Of a stretch of 38,201 nucleotides of DNA, positions 2,992 to 37,516 are shown in pieces. Position 1 is the stretch's first letter; each line of letters opens with the position of its first letter. Both the position numbers and the translations under genes were made by a program. Below the pieces are notes generated by a model. It had not been told where the DNA came from. It saw only the letters and a program-made list of their open reading frames with translations, and did not search any database. The DNA comes from a virus, in the IMG/VR virus record IMGVR_UViG_3300037537_000832, positions 1 through 38,201 of that record; one strand, given 5' to 3'.

Positions 2992-4025
2992 TGAATAAAT
3001 TGTTTGAATTGATACGAGATAATGCAGACAGATTTTCACATGATAATACGATAAAGGTTGGAGCAGTAATAGTAGATAGTTCAAAAGAAATAATATCGTG
3101 GGGAGTAAATAATTTTGATTGTGATGATGATGATTTTAATCAAATATCAATGTTAAATAAATCGGTTGATAAGTATTCATTAATAAGACATGCCGAATCT
3201 AATGCAATTGATAAAGCAATAGAATTAGATGTTCCACTTGAAGGTAAAATTATTGTTACTAATCTATTTCCGTGTTTTGATTGTGCTAAAAAAATTGTTG
3301 AAAATAATATTTCTAAAGTTGTTACAATATCTCGTTCACCTGTTGGTTCTTATTATAATGATATACCAATATTAGAATTTCTAAAAAAATATGATGTTCA
3401 GGTGGATCTATATGATAATTATTATAATCCTGTTAAAATGAATTTTGAAGGTTTTATTGAATGGGCACTTGATGTAAAATATCATAAGTATTTTAATGAG
3501 TTTAATTATTATTTGTGGGGTGGTATTATATCATGGCCCAAGAATACGGTAGATATTGATATATTAATATCAAAACGAAATGGAGTTAGGACAAAGTTAA
3601 ATCATCTTGAAAGTATAATTTTTGATTTTAGAAATTCTTGGGATAAGTATGGTATAGTAATAGATCCGTGTTATATGAGAAAACCACAATGGATAGCAGA
3701 TTATCCACGCGACGAAGATATTTTAAGACAAGTAGAAACAAAAACATTGATGATAAATGCATCAGATTCATTTGATGTGAGTGGAGTACCGAAAGATATT
3801 AATTTTAGAAGAATAGGAAAAATGAATTGTTATCTTAGACCTTGTTTTACAGATTGGTGGGAAAATGATGATGAAAAAGATGATTTGATAAAGAGGTGGG
3901 TTTATTTAGATGCAAATTTTGCTAGATTAGTAGACTTACGAAAAATTATAAAATATTATGAGAATAACAATAAAAGAAATATAGAAGATTTTTTGAATAA
4001 GTTCCAAGAATATTCAGGATTTTAA
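2991..4025 (+). CDS. Cytidine/dCMP deaminase-like domain fused to a nucleotidyltransferase-like domain
   Basis: The N-terminal half (about 1-140) has the zinc-dependent deaminase signature: HAE at 67-69 and PCFDC at 94-98, so H67, C95 and C98 would bind zinc and E69 would shuttle the proton. By family it would deaminate a cytosine nucleotide, dCMP being the usual phage substrate. The C-terminal half (about 150-344) contains WGG at 176-178, nine residues, then DID at 188-190, and a later IVID at 222-225. This fits the Pol-beta-type nucleotidyltransferase pattern G-G/S-x(9-13)-D-h-D with a third carboxylate. Phage dCMP deaminases are usually about 150-190 residues, so the extension roughly doubles the protein. 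The stretch DCDDDDFN near 43-50 is acidic. The NTase assignment is pattern-based. Confidence 0.65.
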   Translation: MNKLFELIRDNADRFSHDNTIKVGAVIVDSSKEIISWGVNNFDCDDDDFNQISMLNKSVDKYSLIRHAESNAIDKAIELDVPLEGKIIVTNLFPCFDCAKKIVENNISKVVTISRSPVGSYYNDIPILEFLKKYDVQVDLYDNYYNPVKMNFEGFIEWALDVKYHKYFNEFNYYLWGGIISWPKNTVDIDILISKRNGVRTKLNHLESIIFDFRNSWDKYGIVIDPCYMRKPQWIADYPRDEDILRQVETKTLMINASDSFDVSGVPKDINFRRIGKMNCYLRPCFTDWWENDDEKDDLIKRWVYLDANFARLVDLRKIIKYYENNNKRNIEDFLNKFQEYSGF

Positions 4026-4027
4026 TT

Positions 4028-4696
4028 GTGGAAAAATTATATAATCCATATTTGAAGAAGTCCGTAAGTAGAAACTATATCGAACATACTAAAGGTAAAA
4101 TAACTTTTTCAATAGAAGATATGATTGATGTTTTGAGTGGATGGAAACAGGATACGAGTGATTTTTCTTTGTTAGATATAGGATGTGGAACTGGTAATGT
4201 TAGTAATAATAAATCAATAAAAAGATTTAAGAATTATGTTGGAGTAGAACCTTCAAAAGAATTTTTTGAATATGCAAATAAACATAATAAAAATAATAAT
4301 ACAGAGTTTTATAATTGTTCGGTAGAAAATTTACCATTTGAAGATGAAAGTTTTGATTTTATGATTTCAATTGAAACATGGTATTATATAAAAGATGTTA
4401 ATAAAGCAGCTAAAGAATTGAGTCGAGTTTTAAAAAATAATTCTTATTTTCTTATATATACAAGGAACCCAGATGAAATTAATAATTGGAATCAAATCAA
4501 AAAAGTGATAAGTGAATCTGATGATGATTTAAAAGTTCATTCAGACATAAAAGATTCTTGTGAGTTGGGAGAACATTTTTTCTCCAAATTTTCATTGGAA
4601 CAACTGAAGGATTCTTTTGAAAATGTCAATTTTCAAATAAAAATATCAAAGTATAAATACGATAGAATTATGATACAAGGAGAAAAAAATGATTAG
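4028..4696 (+). CDS. Class I SAM-dependent methyltransferase
   Basis: Small-molecule or glycan methyltransferase of the Methyltransf_11 type; the substrate cannot be read from the sequence. Motif I LLDIGCGTGNV (about 48-58) binds SAM. An acidic residue follows after the second strand (VGVEPS). The motif pair ENLPFEDESFDFMISIE and AAKELSRVLKNNSYFLIY are the usual post-II and post-III regions. At 222 residues it is full length for the family. It starts with GTG at 4028, two bases after the previous stop, with no clear Shine-Dalgarno sequence, so it probably depends on coupling. It overlaps the next gene by eight bases. Confidence 0.8.
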   Translation: MEKLYNPYLKKSVSRNYIEHTKGKITFSIEDMIDVLSGWKQDTSDFSLLDIGCGTGNVSNNKSIKRFKNYVGVEPSKEFFEYANKHNKNNNTEFYNCSVENLPFEDESFDFMISIETWYYIKDVNKAAKELSRVLKNNSYFLIYTRNPDEINNWNQIKKVISESDDDLKVHSDIKDSCELGEHFFSKFSLEQLKDSFENVNFQIKISKYKYDRIMIQGEKND

Positions 4697-5636
4697 TTTT
4701 ATATTACCTTTTTCTACAATAGAAAAGGATAAGTTTCTAAACTTAAATGAAAAGAAAGATTTATGGGAAGAAAATGATTCTGCAAATATAATTTTTTCTA
4801 CAATAAAGACAATCAAAAATATTAATTTACTTAAATGTGATAAGGAAATTTTATTAATAGATAACAGTCATACCTGGCCAGAAGTAGATTTACCGAATGT
4901 TAGGGTAATTAAAGGGTGGCAAGCATTACCAGTAGAGGAACTTGAAAAGATTCCAGAATATATGAATCACAAAGATATTCAAAATAGTTTAGACAATCTT
5001 GGTTGTTTAACTATGTGGGTATCAATGGCCTTTCATTTAGGAGTACAAGAAGCCAAAGGTGATTATATTGTTTTACAACATAATGATACATTTTATCATC
5101 AAGACTGTTTAGATGAAATGATTAAACAGATGAAAGAAGAAGAACTTGAATATATTTCAGTTGATAATAAGAAGATATGGATTTCAACTTATCTATTAAA
5201 TAAAGATTTTTTAGATAAATATATTAAAGAATATTCACAACAACCAGTAGTAATAAGACCGGAAAATGGTGGATATATAAAGACTAAAAAGATTGGATTT
5301 GCAGATGCGTATTTTTTCTTGTGTAAGAGAAAGTTCTTTGATAATTATAATATAGACTGGTACTATGGTGATACGAATCATGGTGCAACTATCTATTGTC
5401 TTTATCATGATTTAAAGTATCTTCATTTAGGACCTTATTATGATAATCCAAATTGGGAAACAGAATCTCTAACAAAAAAAAGGGAAGAATGGAGCAGAAC
5501 TTTACATACATATTACTATAAAGATGAGCCATTTCTCACTCACCTAAAAGGTGGTTTTTCAGAAAATAAAATGTCATCAAAAGATTTTAATGAAGAATTT
5601 AATGAATATTTACAGGAATTAAACAATGCAAAATGA
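4689..5636 (+). CDS. GT-A-like glycosyltransferase
   Basis: Likely inverting GT2-type transferase: an N-terminal Rossmann-like region (MISFILPFSTIEKDK, KEILLIDNSHTWP) is followed by GDYIVLQHNDTFYHQDC, which sits where the metal-binding DXD strand lies in GT-A enzymes. Here the motif reads QHND rather than DXD. A similar QHD stretch occurs in the gene at 34250, so the two may belong to one subfamily. The start is well supported by AAGGAG at 4677-4682, six bases before the ATG, inside the preceding gene. Donor and acceptor are unknown. Confidence 0.55.
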   Translation: MISFILPFSTIEKDKFLNLNEKKDLWEENDSANIIFSTIKTIKNINLLKCDKEILLIDNSHTWPEVDLPNVRVIKGWQALPVEELEKIPEYMNHKDIQNSLDNLGCLTMWVSMAFHLGVQEAKGDYIVLQHNDTFYHQDCLDEMIKQMKEEELEYISVDNKKIWISTYLLNKDFLDKYIKEYSQQPVVIRPENGGYIKTKKIGFADAYFFLCKRKFFDNYNIDWYYGDTNHGATIYCLYHDLKYLHLGPYYDNPNWETESLTKKREEWSRTLHTYYYKDEPFLTHLKGGFSENKMSSKDFNEEFNEYLQELNNAK

Positions 5637-6556: not shown

Positions 6557-6769
6557 ATGTATTATGAAACACAGGTTGTATTTACTGAGGAAATCGATAC
6601 TAAAAATGGAGTTAAGGAAAAGAAAGTCCGACGCAACTATTTAGTAGAATGTGATTCAGTATCAGTAGCAGAAGCTAAGGTAATTGAATTTCTAAAGGAT
6701 TCAGCATTTTTCTTTGAAGTAAAAGTAGCAAAGGAATCTAAGATAGTTGACGTAGTAGAGGCATCATGA
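6557..6769 (+). CDS. Small DUF4494-like protein
   Basis: A 70-residue acidic protein of unknown function. MYYETQVVFTEE, KKVRRNYLVECDSVSVAEAK and FFEVKVAKESKIVDVV resemble the short DUF4494 family, in which a beta strand pair is followed by an AEA helix; the family is mostly reported from Bacteroidota and their phages. It has a strong Shine-Dalgarno AGGAG at 6547-6551. It overlaps the following ClpP-like gene by four bases (ATGA at 6766-6769). Family assignment is from memory of the pattern. Confidence 0.6.
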   Translation: MYYETQVVFTEEIDTKNGVKEKKVRRNYLVECDSVSVAEAKVIEFLKDSAFFFEVKVAKESKIVDVVEAS

Positions 6770-7374
6770 ACGAAAAATATTGGGGTGAAAAGAAACCACC
6801 TACTAAAAAAGGTGCACAACCAAATGATGGTAAACCAGAAAAACATATATCAGTTCATGAAAATAAGATTTATTATTATTCTAATGTAAACAGAGAAAGT
6901 GCAGTAGAATTAAATAAAAAGATAGGTGAGATAGAATCTAAAAGTTTGACATTAGCAAATACTTTAGATATAGATCCACCTGTACTTAAAATATTGATAA
7001 ATTCAGGTGGTGGTTCAATCACTGCCGGCATTTCATCTATGGATACTATGTTGAGATGTAAAATTCCAATCCATACTTATGTAGATGGATTTGCAGCAAG
7101 TGCAGCCACATTTTTGTCAATAGTTGGTAATTATAGATTTATGAGTAGAAATTCTTATATGTTGATTCATCAGTTAAGTAGTAACTTTTGGGGAACATAT
7201 GCTAACTTTGAGGACGAGAAACAGAATCTTGATTTAATGATGAAAACCATTAAAGATGTGTATAAAGAATATACTAAAGTTCCAATGAAGAAACTTGATG
7301 AAATATTAAAACACGATTTACTGTGGGATGCTAAACAATGTTTAGAGTATGGATTAATTGATGAGGTAATTTAA
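6766..7374 (+). CDS. ClpP-like serine protease, copy 1
   Basis: ClpP/crotonase-fold peptidase. The oxyanion-hole strand ILINSGGGSI (76-85) precedes the nucleophile in DGFAASAATF (S112). The histidine is in YMLIHQ (H135) and the aspartate precedes AKQCLEYGLIDEV (D184). All three triad positions align with E. coli ClpP (S97, H122, D171), so it should be active. The first 30 or so residues are Lys/Pro-rich and not part of the fold. Phage ClpP homologues have been proposed as prohead proteases or regulators of host proteolysis. This one lies among replication-type genes, not next to a visible capsid gene. A second copy is at 16668. Confidence 0.88.
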   Translation: MNEKYWGEKKPPTKKGAQPNDGKPEKHISVHENKIYYYSNVNRESAVELNKKIGEIESKSLTLANTLDIDPPVLKILINSGGGSITAGISSMDTMLRCKIPIHTYVDGFAASAATFLSIVGNYRFMSRNSYMLIHQLSSNFWGTYANFEDEKQNLDLMMKTIKDVYKEYTKVPMKKLDEILKHDLLWDAKQCLEYGLIDEVI

Positions 7375-8168
7375 TGAGAGTTTTAGTTATAGGAGATAGT
7401 TGTCAAGATGTATTTGTCTATGGTGATATAGAAAGAATTAGTCCTGAAGCTCCTATTCCAGTATTCGTACCAACTCATACAGAAAAAAATGATGGTATGG
7501 CAAAAAATGTTGCAAATAATGTTGAGTCATTAGATATGAACATTTATACCATAACAAATGTAAATAGTATTGTAAAGAAAAGATATGTAGAAAACCGTTC
7601 AGGTCAAATGGTATTAAGGGTTGATGAACACGATTATTGTGATAGAATAAAAATAAAAAAATTACAAGGTATCACGAACAATAAATTTACATCTTATAGT
7701 TTGACTGGTACTGTAAATAAGATTGATGCAATTATCATATCAGATTATTGTAAAGGATTTTTAGAAGAAAGTGATATAGAACATATTTGTAAATACAATA
7801 AAAATGTATTTGTAGACACTAAAAAGAAACTTGGTGAGTGGATAAGAAATGCAGATTTTATCAAGATAAACGAATTAGAATATAAGAAGAATCATGAATT
7901 ACTGTCAGACGATGGATTCAAGGAAAAACTTATTGTTACATTAGGTAGTAAAGGATGTAGATATAAAGATACGGTATTTAATGTAGAAGAAGTTCCTGTA
8001 AAGGATGTGAGTGGAGCAGGAGATACGTTTATTGCTGGATTAGTTCGTGGTTATTTAGATACAAACAATATAGAGAGTGCAATAGAATTTGCACAAAAAT
8101 GTACAACATATGTAGTTCAACAGCATGGTGTCGCAGCAGTTACATTAAAGGAGTTAGAAAATGGCTAA
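7374..8168 (+). CDS. PfkB-family sugar kinase, HldE N-domain-like
   Basis: Resembles the kinase domain of HldE/RfaE, which phosphorylates D-glycero-D-manno-heptose 7-phosphate on the way to ADP-heptose. The diagnostic N-terminal stretch GDIERISPEAPIPVF (17-31) is present, as is the ATP-binding/catalytic DVSGAGDTF (211-219, catalytic D217). At 264 residues it is shorter than the usual kinase domain (about 310-320), with trimming between the N-terminal motif and residue 70. The nucleotidyltransferase half of HldE is absent. The start is a TAATG overlap with ClpP-1. A GT9/heptosyltransferase-like gene occurs far away at 26223. The real substrate may differ from heptose. Confidence 0.75.
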   Translation: MRVLVIGDSCQDVFVYGDIERISPEAPIPVFVPTHTEKNDGMAKNVANNVESLDMNIYTITNVNSIVKKRYVENRSGQMVLRVDEHDYCDRIKIKKLQGITNNKFTSYSLTGTVNKIDAIIISDYCKGFLEESDIEHICKYNKNVFVDTKKKLGEWIRNADFIKINELEYKKNHELLSDDGFKEKLIVTLGSKGCRYKDTVFNVEEVPVKDVSGAGDTFIAGLVRGYLDTNNIESAIEFAQKCTTYVVQQHGVAAVTLKELENG

Positions 8169-8460
8169 AAGAAAAACACCCCAACAACCGCAAAAAGAAG
8201 TTCAAGTGGATTTGAAAAAGGCAGAGACTATAAAATGTGATGATTGTGGGAATTACCTTTTCATTACAGCACACGTAATTAAAAGGATTTCACCAATTAT
8301 GTCACCAACAGGACAAGAAGCACTTGTACCTGTTCAAGTTTATAGTTGTGGTAATTGTGGTAAAGTCCCAAAGATGTTTATAGAGGGAGCCGGACTTGGT
8401 TTAGAAGAAGTAAATAAACCAAAGGAAGATGCACTTTCACGACCAGACTTGATGGGATAA
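8161..8460 (+). CDS. Small zinc-ribbon protein
   Basis: A 99-residue protein with two CxxC knuckles, C26/C29 (KCDDCG) and C63/C66 (SCGNCG), separated by 33 residues, which would form one zinc ribbon. The N-terminus is Lys/Gln-rich and the C-terminus is acidic. Function unknown; small zinc-ribbon proteins of this kind are common in T4-like phage replication and late-gene regions. It overlaps the kinase gene by eight bases and the next gene starts in its stop codon (TAATG). Confidence 0.7.
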   Translation: MAKRKTPQQPQKEVQVDLKKAETIKCDDCGNYLFITAHVIKRISPIMSPTGQEALVPVQVYSCGNCGKVPKMFIEGAGLGLEEVNKPKEDALSRPDLMG

Positions 8461-9188
8461 TGATTAAAAAACTCTATACCATTGGAGACAGTTGGACATA
8501 TGGAGATGAATTAGAAAGTCCTGAAACAGAATGTTATCCGTATTTGTTATCACAAGAGTTTAATTGTGAACTTATAAATAAGGCAATATGTGGAGGTCCC
8601 AACGATTGGATGTTTAGAAAAACAATAGAATGGGTTTGTAGTCAAGAAAATCTTGATGGTGTTGCTATAATAGTGGGTTGGAGTTCAGTAAATCGTAGGG
8701 AAGAAAATTATAAAATTTATCATGGTGCATATCATGATGATGAAATAGAAAAATTTATTTTTAGTAGGCTGTCAAATAATGAATTAGAACATTATAAGTC
8801 AATTTGTTATATGATTTCTTTACAGGAGTTTTTAAAATCTAAAAATGTGAAGTATTTATTTTATCAGCCGTGGTATGATATACTTGATTGTGAAGAAAAA
8901 TTACTTAGGAGCAGACAACAACAAGAGAGAATGAAATGGTTATTTAAGAATGATGTCAGAGATGATTATGATAAGAGTTGTTATACTGATGAATTAACAA
9001 TTGGTAAAATTATAGAGAAAGTTGATAAAAGATATTTGGCAGGCCCATTGGTAGATGATGTTAAACGAATACTGAGTGGTATTTATGGTAAAAAGAAAGA
9101 TGGTTTAGACCCAAACCATCCCAATAAGAATGACCATAAAGTGATGTGTGAATTTATTAAGGAAAAGTTAATGGAGTTATATTCATGA
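8460..9188 (+). CDS. SGNH/GDSL-like hydrolase, copy 1
   Basis: N-terminal block YTIGDSWTYG (6-15) carries the GDS nucleophile serine (S11). A strand ending in AIIVGWSSVNRRE follows. The C-terminal LDPNHPNKNDH (about 216-226) supplies the D-x-x-H of block V (D217, H220). The family includes esterases and sugar O-acetyl-esterases or acetyltransferases; this one may edit acyl groups on the glycan or handle the aminoacyl product of the gene at 9760, which is speculation. It begins the accessory block between the two core blocks. A paralogue is at 24795. Confidence 0.65.
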   Translation: MIKKLYTIGDSWTYGDELESPETECYPYLLSQEFNCELINKAICGGPNDWMFRKTIEWVCSQENLDGVAIIVGWSSVNRREENYKIYHGAYHDDEIEKFIFSRLSNNELEHYKSICYMISLQEFLKSKNVKYLFYQPWYDILDCEEKLLRSRQQQERMKWLFKNDVRDDYDKSCYTDELTIGKIIEKVDKRYLAGPLVDDVKRILSGIYGKKKDGLDPNHPNKNDHKVMCEFIKEKLMELYS

Positions 9189-9745
9189 TTGACGTTGAAA
9201 ATATTTCGTTAGATATTGCAAATTATTGGACATCAAATGATTTTTTAACAGAGTCCAATAAAAATTGTGGAACTCTTGTTGCATTTGATTGGGTAGATGA
9301 TTATCTAACTGAAATAAATACTAATATTGATTTAGGTGAATTAGAGAGTAAAAATTTTAAATTTGACGAGTTAGTTGAATTTTTAAAGAAGAATAATTTT
9401 ACTTTCGTGTTGGGATTGAGAAATACTGGTTATAGAGATAATCCATCACCAGAGTGGACGGAGAAATTAAAAGAAATATTAAAGTCTAATGAGATGGATT
9501 ATGATGAGTATCTGGTGAATCGTTGGCCATCACTAATTCCAGAATTTGATATTCCAGATAATATTTTTATTTTAAGATATTCTTTTGATCCATACAGTAA
9601 AATAGATAAGTTAGCAGCCTCTTCTTATATATTTAGTGATTTTATGATAAAGAGTGATTGGGAAAAATACTACAAAGATATGGGATCCATAGAAAACAAT
9701 AGAGTTATAGTTTTATGTAGTGATGTAGAAAATTTAGTTTTATAG
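9185..9745 (+). CDS. Hypothetical acidic protein
   Basis: A 186-residue acidic protein that I do not recognise. It starts in an ATGA overlap with the SGNH gene and precedes the synthetase-like fusion by 14 bases. Visible features are an alternation of predicted strands and helices (GTLVAFDWVDDYL, FTFVLGLRNTGYRDNPSPEW, NIFILRYSFDPYSKID, NNRVIVLCSDVENLVL) and no signal peptide or membrane segment. It has no D-S-L/I phosphopantetheine site, so it is not an obvious carrier protein for the neighbouring ligase. The position between two enzymes suggests the same pathway. Confidence 0.6.
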   Translation: MIDVENISLDIANYWTSNDFLTESNKNCGTLVAFDWVDDYLTEINTNIDLGELESKNFKFDELVEFLKKNNFTFVLGLRNTGYRDNPSPEWTEKLKEILKSNEMDYDEYLVNRWPSLIPEFDIPDNIFILRYSFDPYSKIDKLAASSYIFSDFMIKSDWEKYYKDMGSIENNRVIVLCSDVENLVL

Positions 9746-9759
9746 GATACTTTTGTGAA

Positions 9760-11172
9760 ATGATGATAAAGAATAAAGTACCACATCCAGTAATGGTTAA
9801 TCAAGTCGGTAAAGGTTTATTTGTATTAAATGGTAAAATAGTTGATTATTTGGATCAATTAGAAAAGACTATCTATAAAATAGGAGAATTTTTTGATGCT
9901 GAAAAATTATGGATACCATCTCATCTTTCTTTAGAGAATGTAGAGAAAACTGGTTATATAAATGGTTTTGAAAATCAGGCAAGTATGATACATTCCTTTC
10001 ATGGTGATTCAATAGGGATGTGTTCGCCTACAGTATGTTATCATTGTTATAGTATGTTGTCTGATAAAAAATTGAATGGAAATAAGTGTTATACTGCAAC
10101 TGGTAAATGTACTCGTATAGAGGATGAGGGAGATTCTTTAGAACGATTATTTAATTTTACAATGTCAGAAATTATATTTGTTGGGACACAAAATTATTGT
10201 GAGGATAGTTTATGTGATATTGTATATTATGTTAAACAATTCTTGGATGGGATTGGTTTAAAATATAAACTTAAAATAGCTAATGATCCTTTTTTCGGGG
10301 ATAAGTCAGAGTTAAAAAAGAAGGCACAGTATCTATCGGGAGCCAAAATTGAAATGCTTGCGGAAATACCTAATGAGAATAGAAGTATTGCAATAGGTTC
10401 TATAAATTTACATCACAGAAAATTTATTGAAAATTTTGGTATTGATGCTGAATGTACTGCATGTTTTGGTTGGGGTTTAGAAAGATTTATTCATGTATTG
10501 ATGTTACAAAAGGGAGATAAACCTTTATTTGAACTTAAATGGAATTCATTTCAGAGAAATAATAAAAAATTTAAATCTGATATGAGGTTAAATACTATTA
10601 AAAATGATAATGTGTGGTATAGATATAAAGAAGAACATTATTGGGTTGGGGAAAGAGATTTAAATAAATTAGAAGTAGAATATGATGGTTTATTTGGTTT
10701 CGTGGTCATAGATAGTTTAAGTAAATTAAAAAAATATAAATCTCAGATACAAAAAGGTATTGATGGGATGACGAAAGAATTACAAGCTTGGGATGAAATA
10801 TGGGATTATGTAGAGTTGGAAAGAAGAATTACAATTGGAGTTATATTCTATTGTCAGATAGTTGATGATATTGCTGTACACTGGCAATTTCAATGGTTAA
10901 ATAATATATGGATACCGGATCATGGTTGGAATTTGAATGGTATATTACCAAACAAGAGTGCATATGGTGGACATTGGTGGTGTCATCCAAAATATAGGTA
11001 CGTTAGAAATTTAATACCAAGTTTATTTAATAATTATGCTGTTCATTTAAAGAGTATTGAAATAGATAGAGATTTAGGATATATTGATGGTTGGAATTGG
11101 AAGGCCGTGGGGGTTTCTGAAAAACTTGGTTATAGTGGTTCAACTTGGATAGAGGAAGTAAAATGGATATAA
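9760..11172 (+). CDS. Amino-acid:carrier-protein ligase-like (class II aaRS fold) fused to a GNAT-like domain
   Basis: Residues about 50-255 resemble the seryl-tRNA-synthetase-derived amino acid:[carrier protein] ligases, which adenylate glycine or alanine and load it on a carrier protein instead of tRNA. Motif 2 is GKCTRIEDEGDSLERLF plus NFTMSEIIFVG (115-141). Motif 3 is ECTACFGWGLERF (231-243). C93 (in TVCYHCY), E137 and C235 would match the Cys-Glu-Cys zinc site of that family. No tRNA-binding coiled coil is present. The C-terminal 200 residues are not part of the ligase. They end in GYIDGWNWKAVGVSEKLGYS (about 441-460), similar to the last conserved block of GNAT acyltransferases. The protein might activate an amino acid and pass it to an amine or hydroxyl. 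The GNAT call is tentative; the synthetase-fold call is firmer. Confidence 0.65.
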   Translation: MMIKNKVPHPVMVNQVGKGLFVLNGKIVDYLDQLEKTIYKIGEFFDAEKLWIPSHLSLENVEKTGYINGFENQASMIHSFHGDSIGMCSPTVCYHCYSMLSDKKLNGNKCYTATGKCTRIEDEGDSLERLFNFTMSEIIFVGTQNYCEDSLCDIVYYVKQFLDGIGLKYKLKIANDPFFGDKSELKKKAQYLSGAKIEMLAEIPNENRSIAIGSINLHHRKFIENFGIDAECTACFGWGLERFIHVLMLQKGDKPLFELKWNSFQRNNKKFKSDMRLNTIKNDNVWYRYKEEHYWVGERDLNKLEVEYDGLFGFVVIDSLSKLKKYKSQIQKGIDGMTKELQAWDEIWDYVELERRITIGVIFYCQIVDDIAVHWQFQWLNNIWIPDHGWNLNGILPNKSAYGGHWWCHPKYRYVRNLIPSLFNNYAVHLKSIEIDRDLGYIDGWNWKAVGVSEKLGYSGSTWIEEVKWI

Positions 11173-11776: not shown

Positions 11777-12469
11777 ATGAGTAACGAATTGTTATTTCTA
11801 TTACAAATAATTATTTCTCTTTCTTTTGTTTTGGGGTTTTATAGACTTGGAAAGGAATGGTTAATTTCATATATTGGATTTGCCGTAATTTTATCACAGA
11901 TTTTCGTCAATAAACAATTTGATTTATTTGGTTGGGCCGTAAGTGGTGGCAATGTTATGTATGCTTCTATATTTTTAGCTACAGATTTGTTAAGTGAACA
12001 TTATGGTAAGAGTGAGGCCAAGAGGGCAGTACATATTGGATTGTTTTTATCTATTATGTATTTAATATTATCACAATTTATTATTGCCTATATACCTAAT
12101 TCTGCAGATTGGGGAGCATCTGGTTGGTTAAGTGGGTTATTTTCATTAAGTCCATCCATAGTTTTAGGTAGTTTGTTGGCATATGTATGTGCACAACATA
12201 ATGATATTTTTCTTTTTCATTATTTAAAAGACAAGACTAAAGGAAAACATCTTTGGTTGAGAAATAATGGTAGTACATTTATTAGTCAATTCATAGATAC
12301 AGCAATTTTTATATCATTTGCATTTTGGATATTGCCTAATTTGTTAGGTTATACAGATATGTTATTATCGTATAATATTATGTTTGAGATATTTATTACT
12401 ACATACGTGTTTAAGTTGTGCGTTGGTGCAATAGACACTGTATTTATTTATTTAAGTAAATATATTTAG
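11777..12469 (+). CDS. yhhQ: Queuosine-precursor transporter, YhhQ/VUT family
   Basis: Inner-membrane importer of deazapurines (preQ0/preQ1 in E. coli; queuine in other members). Family marks are VNKQFDLFGWAVSGGNVMYA, the FLATDLLSEHYGKSEAKRA stretch (about 67-87), and KGKHLWLRNNGSTFISQFIDTAIF towards the C-terminus. About six to seven hydrophobic segments are visible. At 230 residues it is normal length. It starts one base after the barrel gene's stop and is followed by a good Shine-Dalgarno for the next gene, so the barrel and transporter form a pair. No queuosine or DpdA-type base-exchange enzyme is in this window; Nmad1 at 17326 is the nearest nucleotide-modification gene. Confidence 0.9.
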   Translation: MSNELLFLLQIIISLSFVLGFYRLGKEWLISYIGFAVILSQIFVNKQFDLFGWAVSGGNVMYASIFLATDLLSEHYGKSEAKRAVHIGLFLSIMYLILSQFIIAYIPNSADWGASGWLSGLFSLSPSIVLGSLLAYVCAQHNDIFLFHYLKDKTKGKHLWLRNNGSTFISQFIDTAIFISFAFWILPNLLGYTDMLLSYNIMFEIFITTYVFKLCVGAIDTVFIYLSKYI

Positions 12470-12476
12470 GAGTATT

Positions 12477-13886
12477 ATGGCAATAAACTATTCATACAGT
12501 TCGGTTAATTTATCAGGACAAGTAACACAAAGTTTAAAGGATGTTAGTCAGTATATTACTGCAAGTGCAGGTGGTTGGCCAGATTATAAAGTTGGGATGA
12601 TTGCTGGATATGATTTTACTATTGAGAGTGGATCTGGTGATACAAAAATATATGAATTTAATACTAACGTTGCATGTTGTTATGATGCTCCGATATCCCC
12701 GAAGATCAATGGATTATCATCTTATTTATCTACACAAGATATTGATACTCTTTATGTTTATGGTATGGAATGGTGGGGTAGTACTAATCCATCTATATCA
12801 TTTTATAATAAATTAAGTTCAAGTGTGGCTGAACATAATATTTCATCTTCGTTAATTTTACAGGATCAAATTCCTGTTGATAATATTTTCCCAGACACAA
12901 GTTGGCAAATTAAATCTGGATCTAATGAGTATACTTTGTTTGTGGGCTCACCATATAGGTATGATGAATTACTACAATTATCAAGTGGGTCTAATAATAA
13001 AATAAATTTTAGAAATATACTTCAGAGATCACCATCTTCATCTTTAATGATTGATGAATTTAATCCCTCCACCTGTACTCCGAATGATATTTATCCTGAT
13101 TACATTATTAAACGACAGCAAAATGATAGAGGATTGTTGAGTGGAAAGATAGATTTTTATTCGTATGAAGATTCAGCTTTTACTACATTAAGTTCGTCAT
13201 ATGAAGATGGTAGTTATTATGATTCTTATCCATATTATGAAAAATACATTGTAGGGAGTGGTAGTGATGATGTAAGTGGTTATTCGTATAATTATGAATA
13301 CAGTCAAATATTTTTACATAGTTATGATGGTATAATAGATTTAGGAGCCGAGCAGTGTTCTCACAGGTTAATCCCATCTTCGAGTAGTGATTTTAGAAAA
13401 TGGGAAATTGTATCTTCAATACAATATCGTCATATAGCAGTAAGTGGTAGTATTATATCTATGTTTGATGGTTCAGAAAAACAAGTACAAGATTTAGTTG
13501 TTGGTGATAATGTGAAGGCCTTGAGTATAAGTGGTTTAAATCCACAAGGTAGTGATTTTGCAACTTGGACTTCCGGTTCGATATCTGGATCAATTACAGG
13601 TTCTCGTGTTATAGATATTGATTCAAAAATTATACCAGCATATTATAATATCAATAACACATATAAATTACCAGATAATTATGGAAGATTTGTAGAGAAA
13701 AGTGGTTCATTATATCAATTTACTCCATCTTCTGAAATTCATTCTAATAATAAGTTTGTAAGTTTATCTGGAGAGGATATTTCTATTACATCAAATACCT
13801 ATGTTATATCTGATGAAACTTATTACGCAGTCGACCTTGGTGGAGATGATTTATTTTATGTAAATGATATTTTGGTTCATTCTTAA
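12477..13886 (+). CDS. Ser/Gly-rich protein with a degenerate C-terminal Hint domain
   Basis: The 469-residue protein is rich in Ser, Gly and Tyr (for example DVSGYSYNYEYSQ), like phage structural or adhesin proteins. The C-terminal 150 residues look like a Hint (Hedgehog/intein) fold. The N block is SGSIISMFDGSEKQVQDLVV plus GDNVKAL (323-349). The C block is TYYAVDLGGDDLFYV plus NDILVHS (to 469). The residue equivalent to catalytic Cys1 is Ser or Gly and the final Asn is Ser, so self-cleavage is doubtful. The N-terminal 320 residues are not recognised; GYDFTIES and KIYEFNTNVACC are striking. Start is supported by AGGAG at 12468-12472. A role on the virion surface is a guess. Confidence 0.65.
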   Translation: MAINYSYSSVNLSGQVTQSLKDVSQYITASAGGWPDYKVGMIAGYDFTIESGSGDTKIYEFNTNVACCYDAPISPKINGLSSYLSTQDIDTLYVYGMEWWGSTNPSISFYNKLSSSVAEHNISSSLILQDQIPVDNIFPDTSWQIKSGSNEYTLFVGSPYRYDELLQLSSGSNNKINFRNILQRSPSSSLMIDEFNPSTCTPNDIYPDYIIKRQQNDRGLLSGKIDFYSYEDSAFTTLSSSYEDGSYYDSYPYYEKYIVGSGSDDVSGYSYNYEYSQIFLHSYDGIIDLGAEQCSHRLIPSSSSDFRKWEIVSSIQYRHIAVSGSIISMFDGSEKQVQDLVVGDNVKALSISGLNPQGSDFATWTSGSISGSITGSRVIDIDSKIIPAYYNINNTYKLPDNYGRFVEKSGSLYQFTPSSEIHSNNKFVSLSGEDISITSNTYVISDETYYAVDLGGDDLFYVNDILVHS

Positions 13887-15130: not shown

Positions 15131-15574
15131 ATGAAAAATAAAGGTCTATTCGACCACATTACACACATTACACAGAAACAAACAAAAGGTTATTGGAATT
15201 CTCTAAACGAAACAGAGAAGAAGCAGTGGTCTAACTATATGATACATAGATTTCTATCCATGAAGATGGAATATGTTGATGTAGTAAATGAAATTCAGAG
15301 ATACAATCTTAAACCAAAAGATTTATATAAATTATACACTAATATTCTTCCAAAGAAGAAAGAGTGGTTAAAATATGTTAAAGGAAAAAAGACAATGAAA
15401 TATGAAAAATGGGTAGTAGAAATCGTAGCAAAATATTACGAGTCGAGTCTTTCAGAGGCTAGAGAATATTTGGACGTATTCTATGCTACCGAACAAAATA
15501 AAGCTAATCTCAAAACCATATTACAAAAGTATGGATCAGACCCAAAGGAAATTAAAAAACTAAACCTACCCTAA
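15131..15574 (+). CDS. 62: Clamp-loader small subunit (T4 gp62-like)
   Basis: Partner of the gp44-like ATPase in loading the sliding clamp. The pattern W-S-N-Y-M-I-H-R-F-L-S-M (34-45), followed by a VVNEIQRYNL helix and then KYEKWVVEIVAKYYESSLSE (about 90-109), parallels T4 gp62, which has YSKFMVENALSQ, then a helix with AMN, then YGKWAK and LIIKLLAKRYQV. The KTILQKYGSDPKEIKKL end also fits. At 147 residues it is a little shorter than T4 gp62 (187). It has no ATPase motifs, as expected. Its stop overlaps the start of the methyltransferase gene (TAATG). Confidence 0.78.
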   Translation: MKNKGLFDHITHITQKQTKGYWNSLNETEKKQWSNYMIHRFLSMKMEYVDVVNEIQRYNLKPKDLYKLYTNILPKKKEWLKYVKGKKTMKYEKWVVEIVAKYYESSLSEAREYLDVFYATEQNKANLKTILQKYGSDPKEIKKLNLP

Positions 15575-16667: not shown

Positions 16668-17276
16668 ATGTTAGAACGTGACATGGAAAAGTTATTGAAA
16701 GTACATTATGCGGATATGCCAGGATTGGATACAGAAACACAAATTTTGTTTAAACAGTTAGAATGGGGTATCAATTTGGATAGTAATACTATGTATCTAA
16801 CTTATGAAATAGATACAGACCAGTTATATTCAGTTATGTCAAGATTCGATAATTTTATCCAATATAGTGGTGGAAAGAAAGATGTAAATTTAGTTATTTC
16901 GTCTTATGGTGGTGATGTGTATGCAATGTTAGGAACTATTGATTACTTTAATTCATTACCAGTTAAAGTAAATACTCATTGTATTGGAGCCTGTATGTCT
17001 GCAGCCGCAGTAATATTGGCATGTGGAACAGGTAAAAGAACAATGAGTGAAAACTCAACGGTTATGGTCCACGAAGGTTCAGCATTTGAGGTCGGTAAAA
17101 CTTCAGATGTTATAAAAGGAGCCGACCATATGAAAAAATTACAAACAAATATAAATCGTATTTTAGGTGATGTTACAAAAAAGACACAAAAGTTTTGGGA
17201 AGAAACTTCCAAACAAGATACATATCTAACATCAGAAGAATGTTTAGAATATGGTATTGTAGATAAAATCACTTGA
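16668..17276 (+). CDS. ClpP-like serine protease, copy 2
   Basis: Second ClpP-fold peptidase, 202 residues, clearly diverged from copy 1. Elements are NLVISSYGGDVYAM (about 74-87), the nucleophile in IGACMSAAAVILACG (S111), the histidine in VMVHEGS (H135) and the aspartate in KQDTYLTSEECLEYGIVD (D184). The triad is complete and the spacing is nearly the same as in copy 1 (S112/H135/D184), which would allow a mixed barrel of two subunit types. Start is supported by AGGAG at about 16658-16662. A promoter-like site overlaps its stop. Confidence 0.88.
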   Translation: MLERDMEKLLKVHYADMPGLDTETQILFKQLEWGINLDSNTMYLTYEIDTDQLYSVMSRFDNFIQYSGGKKDVNLVISSYGGDVYAMLGTIDYFNSLPVKVNTHCIGACMSAAAVILACGTGKRTMSENSTVMVHEGSAFEVGKTSDVIKGADHMKKLQTNINRILGDVTKKTQKFWEETSKQDTYLTSEECLEYGIVDKIT

Positions 17277-24153: not shown

Positions 24154-24802
24154 CTACGGCATTACAGTTCATAATGAAGCAGATGAACTCAATAAGTTAT
24201 TAGAAATATTAGTACATAAGACAGACCCAGAAGATGAAATAGTAATTTGTGTAGATGGTGATGATGATGGAGTTAGGTTCGTATTAGATAGTTGGACCCA
24301 ACAATATGCACATGCAAAGATGATTAAAGTTTATCAGCGAAAGCTTGATGGTGATTTTTCAGCTCAAAAAAATTCGGTTATAGAAGAATGTGATGGTGAT
24401 TATATATTTCATATTGATGCGGATGAATATCCACATGAAACATTATTAGAACAACTCAAACCTATATTAGAAATAAATGATAACGTGGACTTGATTTGGA
24501 TACCAAGAGTTAATACCATTGAGGGTATGGAACAACACCATATACGGAAGTGGGGTTGGAAAGTTTCTGATAAGGGCTGGGTAAACTATCCTGATTATCA
24601 AGCGAGATTTTTTAGAAATGATAAAAGTATACGATGGACTCGACCACTACACGAATTAATTACAGGTTGTAAAACATATGCACATCTACCACCACAGGAA
24701 GAATTATCGTTATATCATCACAAAACAATAGATAAACAAGAACAGCAAAATCTATTTTATAATCAAAATTTTAGTAAAGAGTTAAATGTGAGACATGCAT
24801 AA
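24143..24802 (+). CDS. Glycosyltransferase, GT2 family
   Basis: GT-A enzyme that would use a nucleotide sugar with a divalent metal. N-terminal ISYGITVHNEADELNKLLE (3-21) is the classic first strand and helix, followed by IVICVDGDDDG. The DXD motif is FHIDADEYP (D92, D94). IRWTRPLHELITG and later residues resemble WaaE-type enzymes that act on lipopolysaccharide core. 219 residues, near the shorter end of the family. No membrane segment. Its start overlaps the preceding hypothetical gene by 11 bases. Confidence 0.85.
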   Translation: MKISYGITVHNEADELNKLLEILVHKTDPEDEIVICVDGDDDGVRFVLDSWTQQYAHAKMIKVYQRKLDGDFSAQKNSVIEECDGDYIFHIDADEYPHETLLEQLKPILEINDNVDLIWIPRVNTIEGMEQHHIRKWGWKVSDKGWVNYPDYQARFFRNDKSIRWTRPLHELITGCKTYAHLPPQEELSLYHHKTIDKQEQQNLFYNQNFSKELNVRHA

Positions 24803-25637
24803 AAAATATTTATTATCAAATGGCGATAGTTGGGTACTCGGTAGTATGTTAGATACCGAGTGGATGAGAAAAAAATATTTATCAGAAAGGGGTATTAGAT
24901 ATGATGAGTTTTGTAGTGAGATTGGAGAGGAAGAAGAGTATACTTGGTTGTGTAATAATACTAATTATCACAACGATGCAGGAGAAGCACAGAAAAAAAG
25001 TAGATTTTCCACTGTGGTTAGTGATAAATTAGGATTGGAAGAAATAAATTTGTCTTGGGAAGGCAAATCTAATAAGGCAATAATGAGGACTACTATTGAG
25101 TGGATACTTGATAATAAGGATAAACTTGAAGATACATTTTTTTTAATTGGGTGGACAGCACCAATGAGAGGTGAATCTGTGGATGATAAAAATGACTCGT
25201 ATGGGAGGGATTGGATAGAACAAAAAATAGTGGCTGAACTCGAAACCCTGTACCTTATATTGAATCTACAAAATTATTTTAAAGTAAATAATGTAGAGTA
25301 TATGTTTATAGATTTATTTTCAGACTTATTTTTACCAATGGAATATAATATTCGTGATTCTTCTGACGAAAAGTATCGAAGGTTTTCAACATCTTTGAGT
25401 TTATACGATAGTTTATTAGGAGAACTTGATAAAGATAAATTTTTGAGTCAAAAATCTTTAGTAAAAATAATCGAAGAAAATGTTGATTTGGGTAATATTA
25501 AAGACGGTGAACAATTTGTGGAGTTACCAATTAAAAATAATTATGGTGGAGATACCAAGTTTATGGGTCATCCGACAATATCATCAAGTAAAGTTATAGG
25601 AAATTTAATATATGAGAAAATACTTACCAACAATTAG
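24795..25637 (+). CDS. SGNH-like protein, copy 2 (diverged catalytic end)
   Basis: Shares with the protein at 8460 the N-terminal YLLSNGDSWVLGSML (5-19), the strand ending FFLIGWTAPMRGES and the segment LILNLQNYFKVNNVEYMF. It is longer (280 against 242), mainly through an insertion after the first block (ERGIRYDEFCSEIGEEEEYT). The block V D-x-x-H seen in copy 1 is replaced by KFMGHPTISSSKV, so the histidine has a candidate but the partnering Asp does not. It may be a hydrolase with altered chemistry or a binding protein. It overlaps the GT2 gene by eight bases and the next gene by 26 bases. Confidence 0.58.
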   Translation: MHKKYLLSNGDSWVLGSMLDTEWMRKKYLSERGIRYDEFCSEIGEEEEYTWLCNNTNYHNDAGEAQKKSRFSTVVSDKLGLEEINLSWEGKSNKAIMRTTIEWILDNKDKLEDTFFLIGWTAPMRGESVDDKNDSYGRDWIEQKIVAELETLYLILNLQNYFKVNNVEYMFIDLFSDLFLPMEYNIRDSSDEKYRRFSTSLSLYDSLLGELDKDKFLSQKSLVKIIEENVDLGNIKDGEQFVELPIKNNYGGDTKFMGHPTISSSKVIGNLIYEKILTNN

Positions 25638-35220: not shown

Positions 35221-35946
35221 ATGTTAAGTTATGATTACACATATAAAGATACGAAAATTGATTTAGTTATAGAAACATACCATCATGATAATCCTATGGC
35301 CATGGGAGACAAAAATACTGTTAGTGTTCTCATGGAGATATGGAATAATTATTTTGAAAATTCCCCAGAGGTAATATTGGATGTTGGGGCATGTGTAGGA
35401 ATATATTCTCTCTTGTTGGATAGAATGATAGAAAATGATAATTGTAAAATTTATGGTTTTGAACCAGTAAAATCTTCTTATGAAACTTTTGTAAAAAATA
35501 TTTATAGAAATAAGGCTGACAATATTATAGCATTAAATTATGGTATATATAATCAGAATACACAATTAGATATTGGATTACCAGACGAGTCGTTCTTTAA
35601 ACAAAAAAACTTATCTACTCGTGATTATCCTGGTAGGTTTAGTGTAAAATGTAGTAGAAATGCAGTGTCGTGTGATTTTAAAAGATTAAAAGAATTTTCA
35701 AATGATTATGATGTTTGGAGTGCAGATATTATTAAAATAGATTGTGAAGGATGTGAAGAAGTGTTTTTAAAAGATAATAAAGAGTTTATATCTAATTCAG
35801 GATTTGTATTTATTGAACAGGCGCCTGAATATACTTCTGAGAAAGAAGTTATTAGAATGTTAGAAGAATATAATTTTCAGAAAGTGTGGAATAGCAGACA
35901 TGACATGGCATTTGTAAATTTAAGTAAGATAAAAGGAGATGAATAG
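35221..35946 (+). CDS. FkbM-family methyltransferase
   Basis: O-methyltransferase using SAM, common in polysaccharide clusters. Motif I VILDVGACVGIYSLLL (51-66), GFEPVKSSYETFVKN (motif II), and the family-specific IIKIDCEGCEEVFLK region (about 169-183). 241 residues, normal. Shine-Dalgarno-like AAGGTGG before ATG 35221. It has a strong AGGAG at its end serving the following NeuA-NeuB gene. Confidence 0.85.
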   Translation: MLSYDYTYKDTKIDLVIETYHHDNPMAMGDKNTVSVLMEIWNNYFENSPEVILDVGACVGIYSLLLDRMIENDNCKIYGFEPVKSSYETFVKNIYRNKADNIIALNYGIYNQNTQLDIGLPDESFFKQKNLSTRDYPGRFSVKCSRNAVSCDFKRLKEFSNDYDVWSADIIKIDCEGCEEVFLKDNKEFISNSGFVFIEQAPEYTSEKEVIRMLEEYNFQKVWNSRHDMAFVNLSKIKGDE

Positions 35947-35947
35947 A

Positions 35948-37516
35948 ATGAATATTTTAGCTGTTATACCAGCAAAAGGAGAATCCAGTAGGTTATTTAA
36001 TAAAAATCTTCAAAAAATAGGAGATAAGACATTAATTGAGTTAGCAGTAGAATACGCTAAGAGTTCAACTTGTGTTACAGAAGTAGTAGTTTCTACCGAT
36101 TCAGAAGATGTAAAACAACTCGTAGACGATCTTAAATTATGTAAGTGTGTTTTGAGAGGAAAAGAACTTTCAGGGGATGCAGATGTTTTTCATGTTTATC
36201 AGCACGCATGGGAAGAAATGGGAAAAGAAGCAGATTATGTTATTGGTTTACAACCAGATAATCCAGATAGAACACTATCTCTTGATTTCGCTCTCGACTA
36301 TGTATTCAATAAAAACTTGGATAATTTTTTCACGGTAGGTAAAGATGGTAAGAAAAATGGAGCTCTTAGAATTTATCGTCCTACAGTAGAACAATTTACT
36401 GAAGAGAGTACTTTGTTAGATGATTGTACTAACATTCATACTAAAGAAGATTTGAATAAGGCTAGAAGTAGAATACTTGTAAATCCAAATCCATTAGGAT
36501 TGGATCCCAATGAAGTTTTTATAACGGCAGAGGCCGCATGTAATCATATGTGTAGTATAGAATTAGCCAAGGCGATGATTGACCACGCGGCAGAAGCAGG
36601 AGTAAATGGAATTAAGTTTCAAACATACAAAGGAGAACGGGTAGTTACAAAGTACGCACCAGCCTTTTGGGGAACTGAAACTATGAAACAAACTGAATAT
36701 TATAAAAGGTTAGATAAATTTAATAAAGAAGATTATGAGTTTTTATTTAAGTATGCATATGACAAAGGTATAATTCCATTTTCAACACCATTTGGAATAG
36801 AAGATGCTATAATGTTGAATGAAATAGGAATGGAAATTTTTAAAATTGCGTCATTTGAAATAGTAAATCTTGAGTTGTTAAAATGCATTGCATCATTTCA
36901 GAAACCAATTATACTTTCTACAGGAGCAGCTACATATAAAGAAATTGATAAAGCAATAGAAGTTATGTTAGGAGAAGGTAATGGTGATATAGCTTTGATG
37001 GCATGTACACTTAGTTATCATACAGAGAATGAAGATGCAAATCTTAAACGAATTCAGACATTAAAAGAAAGGTATCCTAATTTTATGATTGGAATGTCAG
37101 ACCATACTTTACCAGATGAGAATATGGTTATACCAGCAATTTCTGTTGCACTTGGTGCTAGAATAATTGAAAAACATTATACGATGTCGAGGAGTATGAC
37201 AGGTTCAGGACATTATTTTTCGTTAGAACCGAGTGATGTTACTAAAATGGTGAAAAATATTAGGTTGTTTGAAACTGTTTTGGGTGATGGGATACAAGGA
37301 ACTGCTGATAACGAGGTTAGAGCCAAAAAAGGTGGTCGGAAAAGTATAGTAGCTAATATTTATATAAAGAAGGGAAGTACTATAACAAAGGAAATGTTAA
37401 CCTATAAAAGACCTGGGGATGGAATTTCTCCTGACCGAGTTAATGAATTGATTGGTAAAGTAGTACAATTAGATATAGAGGAAGATTTTCAAATTAAATG
37501 GGAAGAAATAAAGTGA
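35948..37516 (+). CDS. Fused CMP-sialate synthetase/sialate synthase (NeuA-NeuB)
   Basis: Two enzymes of nonulosonic acid synthesis in one chain. Residues about 1-170 resemble CMP-Neu5Ac synthetase: NILAVIPAKGESSRLFNKNL at the start, VVVSTDSEDV, and LQPDNPDRT where most enzymes have QPTSPLRT. Residues about 185-450 match NeuB, which condenses an amino-sugar with phosphoenolpyruvate: FITAEAACNHMCSIELAKAM, NGIKFQTYKGERVV, PFSTPFGIEDA, IFKIASFEIVNLELL, PIILSTGAAT, then GMSDHT and EKHYT with the metal-binding histidines. A SAF domain (RKSIVANIYIKKGSTITKEM onwards) ends the protein. ATG 35948 is preferred over 35939 because AGGAG at 35934-35938 is nine bases before it. Product could be sialic, legionaminic or another nonulosonic acid. 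Confidence 0.85.
   Translation: MNILAVIPAKGESSRLFNKNLQKIGDKTLIELAVEYAKSSTCVTEVVVSTDSEDVKQLVDDLKLCKCVLRGKELSGDADVFHVYQHAWEEMGKEADYVIGLQPDNPDRTLSLDFALDYVFNKNLDNFFTVGKDGKKNGALRIYRPTVEQFTEESTLLDDCTNIHTKEDLNKARSRILVNPNPLGLDPNEVFITAEAACNHMCSIELAKAMIDHAAEAGVNGIKFQTYKGERVVTKYAPAFWGTETMKQTEYYKRLDKFNKEDYEFLFKYAYDKGIIPFSTPFGIEDAIMLNEIGMEIFKIASFEIVNLELLKCIASFQKPIILSTGAATYKEIDKAIEVMLGEGNGDIALMACTLSYHTENEDANLKRIQTLKERYPNFMIGMSDHTLPDENMVIPAISVALGARIIEKHYTMSRSMTGSGHYFSLEPSDVTKMVKNIRLFETVLGDGIQGTADNEVRAKKGGRKSIVANIYIKKGSTITKEMLTYKRPGDGISPDRVNELIGKVVQLDIEEDFQIKWEEIK

Follow-up and report, generated by a model that had tools for sequence, protein, structure and literature searches.

Within the window, the 38.2 kb IMG/VR record (38,201 nucleotides) that was analysed here at full length, lies a phage gene (9760–11172, plus strand) whose 470-residue product joins a class II core resembling that of amino acid:[carrier protein] (aa:CP) ligases to a domain predicted to adopt a GNAT fold. 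Sequence comparison and structure prediction identified the two domain types, conserved active-site residues, a conserved gene pair and the cassette position of this pair in a replication block. The ligase-GNAT architecture apparently has not been described before; no published description of such a fusion was found in the open-access literature. We tentatively propose, at a little short of an even chance, that the protein is a two-step aminoacyltransferase in one chain, in which adenylation of an amino acid is followed by formation of a phosphopantetheine thioester and by GNAT-mediated transfer to an amine.

The fused ORF with a ligase and a C-terminal extension, as claimed in the initial annotation, was confirmed at its full 470 residues. 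The ORF is real and conserved and not a product of chance, since homologues with the same fusion were found at 40–56% identity and dN/dS is about 0.07–0.5 across both halves (0.07–0.22 in the ligase half and 0.1–0.5 in the GNAT half). Both halves are under purifying selection. By homology the native start is at 9793. The 11 codons preceding it (9760–9792), which encode residues 1–11 of the window protein, are a deletion scar; comparison of the junction with L003, the nearest relative, by blastn indicates that a deletion relative to L003 brought the 5' end of a second gene into frame with the ligase-GNAT gene. In L003 the same codons begin a different, NTP_transf_2-containing gene that is intact at positions 3471–4823 of that record, and the ligase gene starts at the codon corresponding to window 9793. 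The purine-rich stretch preceding the L003 start is missing in the window, suggesting that the window protein is probably translated from 9760.

The gene is carried by 14 further records: 13 viral contigs found by pattern scans of IMG/VR and a phage-like contig from a Flavobacteriales bin. Wherever the copy is complete, both halves are fused; those in L003 and L016 are truncated by contig ends or by the limits of the flanks analysed, and L016 and L017 encode identical proteins. A first genome scan returned no cellular homologues and a second one returned a single contig, L045 (NZWA01000089.1), from the Flavobacteriales bin. This contig is syntenic with the phages and its proteins are 92–100% identical to theirs, which makes it most likely phage DNA within the bin. 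No other cellular copy was present in 395 genomes of the bin's phylum. The carriers of the fusion are a small group of marine phages, and a marine flavobacterium is our guess for the host. An INPHARED match, L010 (MT835751.1, labelled Bacteriophage sp.), was rejected as a phage relative because its ligase is unfused and has a carrier protein gene next to it. This contig also has transposase-like genes and looks bacterial.

The class II core spans residues 14–262 (9799–10545). The NCBIfam model PRK07080 (amino acid--[acyl-carrier-protein] ligase) matches residues 88–252 with an E-value of 6e-29, and SerRS models are weaker, the better one giving 3e-17. The window protein misses the curated PRK07080 cut-off (100.9 of 357 bits) and is best regarded as a divergent relative of that family rather than an equivalog. 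A sequence match to Bll0957 of Bradyrhizobium (PDB 3mey) has an E-value of 3e-13. In the whole-chain AlphaFold2 model, which is of middling quality (pLDDT 67), residues 15–262 align best with Bll0957 (4h2s; VIA Z 19.7, rmsd 3.2 Å over 221 residues), with type-2 SerRS a close second (Z 18.3). C93, E137 and C235 coincide with the Cys/Glu/Cys zinc-site positions of Bll0957 in the printed alignments and are invariant in 11 family members as well as in the divergent L037. The motif 2 residues R119 and E121 and the motif 3 residue R242 are also present. The Arg that precedes the zinc Glu in most bacterial ligases compared is Ser or Gln in the phage family. No N-terminal tRNA-binding domain was recognised in the fusion chain, because the catalytic core starts at about residue 14 and the remainder is the GNAT part.

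A tree of the core was built from 26 rows, namely phage rows, bacterial aa:CP ligases and two type-2 SerRS. The 13 phage rows form a single clade (support 100/99), and a 100/99 branch splits this clade and the bacterial aa:CP ligases from the two SerRS; nesting of the phage clade inside the aa:CP ligases is weaker (89/85). A SerRS origin of the ligase half was rejected on this basis, with a reservation for L037, which, like L010, is a long branch. L037 alone scores slightly better with a SerRS model (101.7 bits) than with PRK07080 (94.7 bits), and 'aa:CP-ligase-like' is therefore a safer description than 'an aa:CP ligase'. These results agree with the initial annotation, which had proposed an enzyme of aa:CP-ligase type with a C93/E137/C235 zinc site, motifs 2 and 3 and no tRNA-binding arm; the PRK07080 match, the Bll0957 alignments and the tree all support it, and in the tree the ligase half falls outside SerRS.

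A counterpart of the carrier-protein-docking helix of aa:CP ligases is found at residues 176–198 (DPFFGDKSELKKKAQYLSGAKIE; 10285–10353). Wild-type Bll0957 and 4h2w, an engineered ligase retargeted to another carrier protein, differ in a segment that aligns without gaps to residues 181–195 of the window protein. Both the length of the helix and its position between DPFF and K-x-E are the same as in aa:CP ligases. Identity within the phage family is 77% over this region, whereas the ligase domain as a whole has 56% and another helix 37%. Q190 and K196-x-E198 are common to the phage family and the aa:CP ligases and do not occur in the two type-2 SerRS segments. The phage protein thus shares with aa:CP ligases the class II core, the Cys-Glu-Cys zinc site, the lack of a tRNA-binding domain, the docking helix and the Q and K-x-E signature residues; it differs in its GNAT fusion, its phage location, the replaced Arg, its score below the family cut-off and the lack of a carrier gene found nearby.

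Neither a carrier gene (PF00550, PP-binding) nor a phosphopantetheinyl transferase gene (PF01648) was found in the 12–14 viral records searched, all of which are likely fragments, whereas seven of the bacterial aa:CP ligase loci examined have a carrier gene at most two genes away. The lack of a carrier gene nearby, from which the initial annotation had argued for a bypass of the carrier, was thus also observed here, as an absence from fragments. The bypass itself is not supported, since the docking helix is among the best-conserved parts of the protein and FabZ-like or AMP-binding genes, which belong to acyl-thioester chemistry, neighbour the fusion in some relatives. The retained helix and the absence of a carrier gene would be reconciled if the thioester partner were CoA or a carrier of the host. 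The Zn-ribbon protein encoded upstream of the fusion (8161–8460, plus strand) was rejected as a LysW-like amino-group carrier: its matches are weak, it has no conserved C-terminal Glu, and the gene is also present in phages in which the fusion was not detected.

The C-terminal ~200 residues gave no Pfam or PDB sequence match. An AlphaFold2 model of the C-terminal half alone, computed from 11 relatives (pLDDT 82, pTM 0.81), predicts a GNAT fold at about residues 301–470 (10660–11169). The Foldseek top match is a tandem GNAT (E 1e-5), and almost all of the best matches listed are GNATs. In VIA comparisons, where GNAT chains likewise fill the top of the list, the best match is VipF (Z 14.1), and the others include glucosamine N-acetyltransferase (13.3), MshD (12.7), the DUF2156 domain of an LPG synthetase (MprF, 5vrv; 12.6), Sba18 (10.9) and FemX (10.8). 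These predictions bear out the GNAT-like nature first suggested for the extension, and neither of the two results that the initial annotation had named as refuting it, a C-terminal half with no predicted GNAT fold or an N-terminal half grouping with seryl-tRNA synthetases, was obtained. The predicted fold does not choose the donor among acyl-CoA, a carrier and aminoacyl-tRNA, because MprF, which uses aminoacyl-tRNA, scores a similar Z, and the ranges overlap (12.6 for 5vrv and 10.8 for FemX against 14.1 for VipF). The acyl-CoA pyrophosphate loop (R/Q-x-x-G-x-G/A) is not canonical and is replaced by R413-x-x-R416 in all family rows.

The constant partner of the fusion is the gene at 12477–13886 (plus strand). 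In each of the 13 loci with this side visible, a member of its family lies downstream of the fusion, either adjacent to it or separated by a few genes at most, and a scan with the 12477 profile returned 10 loci, each of which has the fusion. The family is Ser/Gly-rich, has a PHROG 'virion structural protein' match and ends in a Hint-like domain (match to 6tmm, E 9e-6). Its N-terminal half contains conserved D, E, N, K, R and E residues, which look catalytic rather than structural, and a D..E.N motif with the spacing found in glutathionylspermidine synthetase-type enzymes. The motif makes a circularly permuted ATP-grasp domain possible, a lead at the motif level; Pfam, PDB profile and hhalign searches gave no significant match for this assignment, the hhalign placement of the motif on YgiC/YjfC/Gss having an E-value of 0.07 and a probability under 1%.

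ORF clustering gave the order of the replication block as polymerase, clamp-like gene, gp44-like clamp loader, Zn-ribbon, fusion, 12477 family and clamp-loader A-like gene. The Zn-ribbon gene borders the pair upstream, and the clamp-loader A-like gene (15131–15574, plus strand), whose product is 28% identical (E 2e-19) to the 'clamp loader A subunit' of Microcystis phage Mel-JY01, borders it downstream. In Mel-JY01 the HolB, Zn-ribbon and clamp loader A genes are adjacent, with neither the fusion nor a 12477 gene. This suggests that the fusion and its partner behave as a cassette for which Mel-JY01 represents the unoccupied site. The replication block of these phages is an insertion place for varied genes. 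Two other neighbours that had been drawn into the system are not supported as members of it. The 9185 gene (9185–9745, plus strand), which has an ExNTN motif like that of the 12477 protein, was rejected as a conserved partner, as it is present only in the window, L003 and L007 (3 of 13 loci in the first comparison). The SGNH gene (8460–9188) is missing at the corresponding place in L003; it and 24795–25637 form a pair of DUF6071/SGNH-like paralogues in the window. PADLOC returned no match for an anti-phage defence role.

Several neighbours hint at the chemistry. A PIG-L deacetylase is encoded near the fusion gene in 3 records, glycosyltransferase family 2 genes occur in 5, a compact AMP-binding ligase is found in 4, and a FabZ-like dehydratase gene lies directly downstream of the fusion in L037; the PIG-L, FabZ and AMP-binding neighbours are each present in a minority of records. 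The window itself has genes of sugar type, encoding a DegT aminotransferase, a NeuB/CTP-transferase fusion, a GDP-mannose dehydratase-like protein and a sulfotransferase. In L017 (7809–8936) the compact AMP-binding domain, of acyl-CoA-synthetase type, is joined to a small GNAT-like domain two genes from the ligase-GNAT fusion, and the two parts are separate genes in L018 (6645–7773), L019 and L023. This is a second pairing of an adenylating enzyme with a GNAT in the same phages. Positions 35939–37516 of the window encode CTP-transferase and NeuB-SAF domains in a single protein, and with the GDP-mannose dehydratase-like and DegT genes nearby the region constitutes a sizeable sugar-modification set.

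From these features we infer each reaction step, the carrier and the acceptor. The zinc-dependent class II core would bind a small amino acid, with glycine or alanine as precedents, and convert it to the aminoacyl-adenylate. The amino acid would then be kept as a thioester on a phosphopantetheine arm docking at helix 176–198; with no carrier found in the phage records, the arm would most likely belong to CoA or to an acyl carrier protein of the host. From there the GNAT domain of the same chain would pass the aminoacyl group to an amine, giving an amide. The acceptor would probably be an amino sugar or some other small molecule from glycan or secondary metabolism, and the linked 12477 protein may carry out a further step. 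The ligase-domain matches and tree, the zinc triad and motif residues that are invariant even in L037, the conserved docking helix, the GNAT fold and the purifying selection on both halves support this mechanism, and the thioester-type (FabZ-like, AMP-binding) and amine or glycan neighbours (PIG-L, glycosyltransferases, DegT, NeuB) were counted in its favour. Against it stand the missing carrier and phosphopantetheinyl transferase genes, although the bacterial aa:CP ligases examined usually adjoin a carrier gene, as well as the non-canonical GNAT loop, the replaced Arg, the missed NCBIfam cut-off and the minority status of the PIG-L, FabZ and AMP-binding neighbours.

Some GNATs, among them SbzC, SbzI and FeeM, are known to accept acyl groups from carriers; SbzB loads a carrier from which SbzC transfers, and SbzL and SbzI act likewise (PMC6331615). 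These pairs from altemicidin/SB-203208 biosynthesis resemble the phage protein in coupling an adenylating enzyme with a GNAT transferase, but they are separate proteins with adenylate-forming enzymes of another type, identified carrier proteins and a known acceptor. In 2010 Aravind and colleagues predicted for aa:CP ligase systems a role in attaching amino acids to amino sugars at the cell surface (PMC2922099). This prediction and the carrier-using GNATs make the proposed route plausible. In its fullest form the route would be peculiar to phages: one chain would charge CoA or an acyl carrier of the host with an amino acid and hand it on to an amine with no tRNA involved, in concert with the linked 12477 protein. 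This form is possible but on balance doubtful.

Other donors and acceptors were weighed against this two-step route. One alternative, which we consider unlikely, has no carrier: either the GNAT domain or the ligase itself would use the adenylate as immediate donor to an amine, in the way that MshC handles cysteine in mycothiol synthesis. Such a reaction would suit a fusion that channels the adenylate, the non-canonical CoA loop, the lack of carrier and phosphopantetheinyl transferase genes and the MshB-type PIG-L deacetylase near the gene in 3 records. However, the docking helix is retained at the same place as one of the most conserved parts, and all records are fragments, so a host carrier could serve. 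The mycothiol parallel could also be taken further, to MshC and MshD combined in one chain: the core would couple an amino acid with an amino sugar, and the product would then be N-acetylated from acetyl-CoA by the GNAT domain. The similarity of the GNAT half to tandem-GNAT MshD and glucosamine N-acetyltransferase and the PIG-L neighbours favour this improbable scheme, yet the acetyl-CoA loop is not conserved and the near-equal score of MprF deprives the fold match of any choice of donor. MshB, MshC and MshD do bring together a PIG-L deacetylase, an aaRS-like ligase and a GNAT, as in three phage relatives, but they are encoded by separate genes, and MshC is a class I enzyme that uses the adenylate directly while MshD uses acetyl-CoA.

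We give a slim chance to a protein acceptor, possibly the 12477 protein or a virion component, with the two genes making an aminoacylated structure. The strict linkage with the 12477 family (13 of 13 loci), its Ser/Gly-rich composition, its Hint-like domain and its virion-protein match are in keeping with this; the catalytic look of its N-terminal residues is not. DNA modification is quite improbable. Here the ligase would make an aminoacyl thioester and the GNAT domain would place the aminoacyl group on a base, resembling Mom of phage Mu, a GNAT-fold enzyme for which an acyl-CoA donor, for example glycyl-CoA, and adenine N6 as target have been reported (PMC7824862). The position beside clamp loader genes inside the replication block and the crystal structure of Bll0957 with CoA (3pzc) fit such a role, but the block accepts varied genes, the neighbours lean to carbohydrate enzymes and Mom is not among the Foldseek and VIA matches listed. 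Mom lacks a ligase fusion and acts on DNA; what it would share with the protein described here is its phage origin, the GNAT fold and the probable use of a thioester of aminoacyl type. A tRNA-dependent transferase, in which a tRNA charged by the core would serve as the donor for the GNAT domain, is very improbable. Class II aaRS-DUF2156 fusions are known (PMC9437257), the GNAT half matches MprF, FemX and Sba18 structures, and fungal ErdS (AspRS-DUF2156) and mycobacterial LysX (LysRS-MprF) likewise fuse a class II activating domain to a GNAT-fold aminoacyltransferase. ErdS and LysX act via aminoacyl-tRNA, however, and the phage chain has no recognised tRNA-binding part, its ligase half stands apart from type-2 SerRS in the tree and its docking helix is that of aa:CP ligases.

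To our knowledge, aa:CP ligases have a known chemistry and few known end products, and a tRNA-free aminoacylation route of the kind proposed has not been described for any virus. With the ligase and its likely transferase in one natural chain and a single gene as constant partner, a sequence of enzyme action suggests itself, and the acceptor can be sought with just two proteins. If true, the two-step route would add tRNA-free aminoacylation to the known phage repertoire.

Three further features of the window were observed. A gene of the queuosine precursor transporter family (11777–12469, E 1e-53) adjoins a DUF5020 gene, two ClpP-family genes (6766–7374 and 16668–17276) occur in this one phage fragment, and two adjoining proteins encoded at 845–2991 are rich in MORN_2 repeats.
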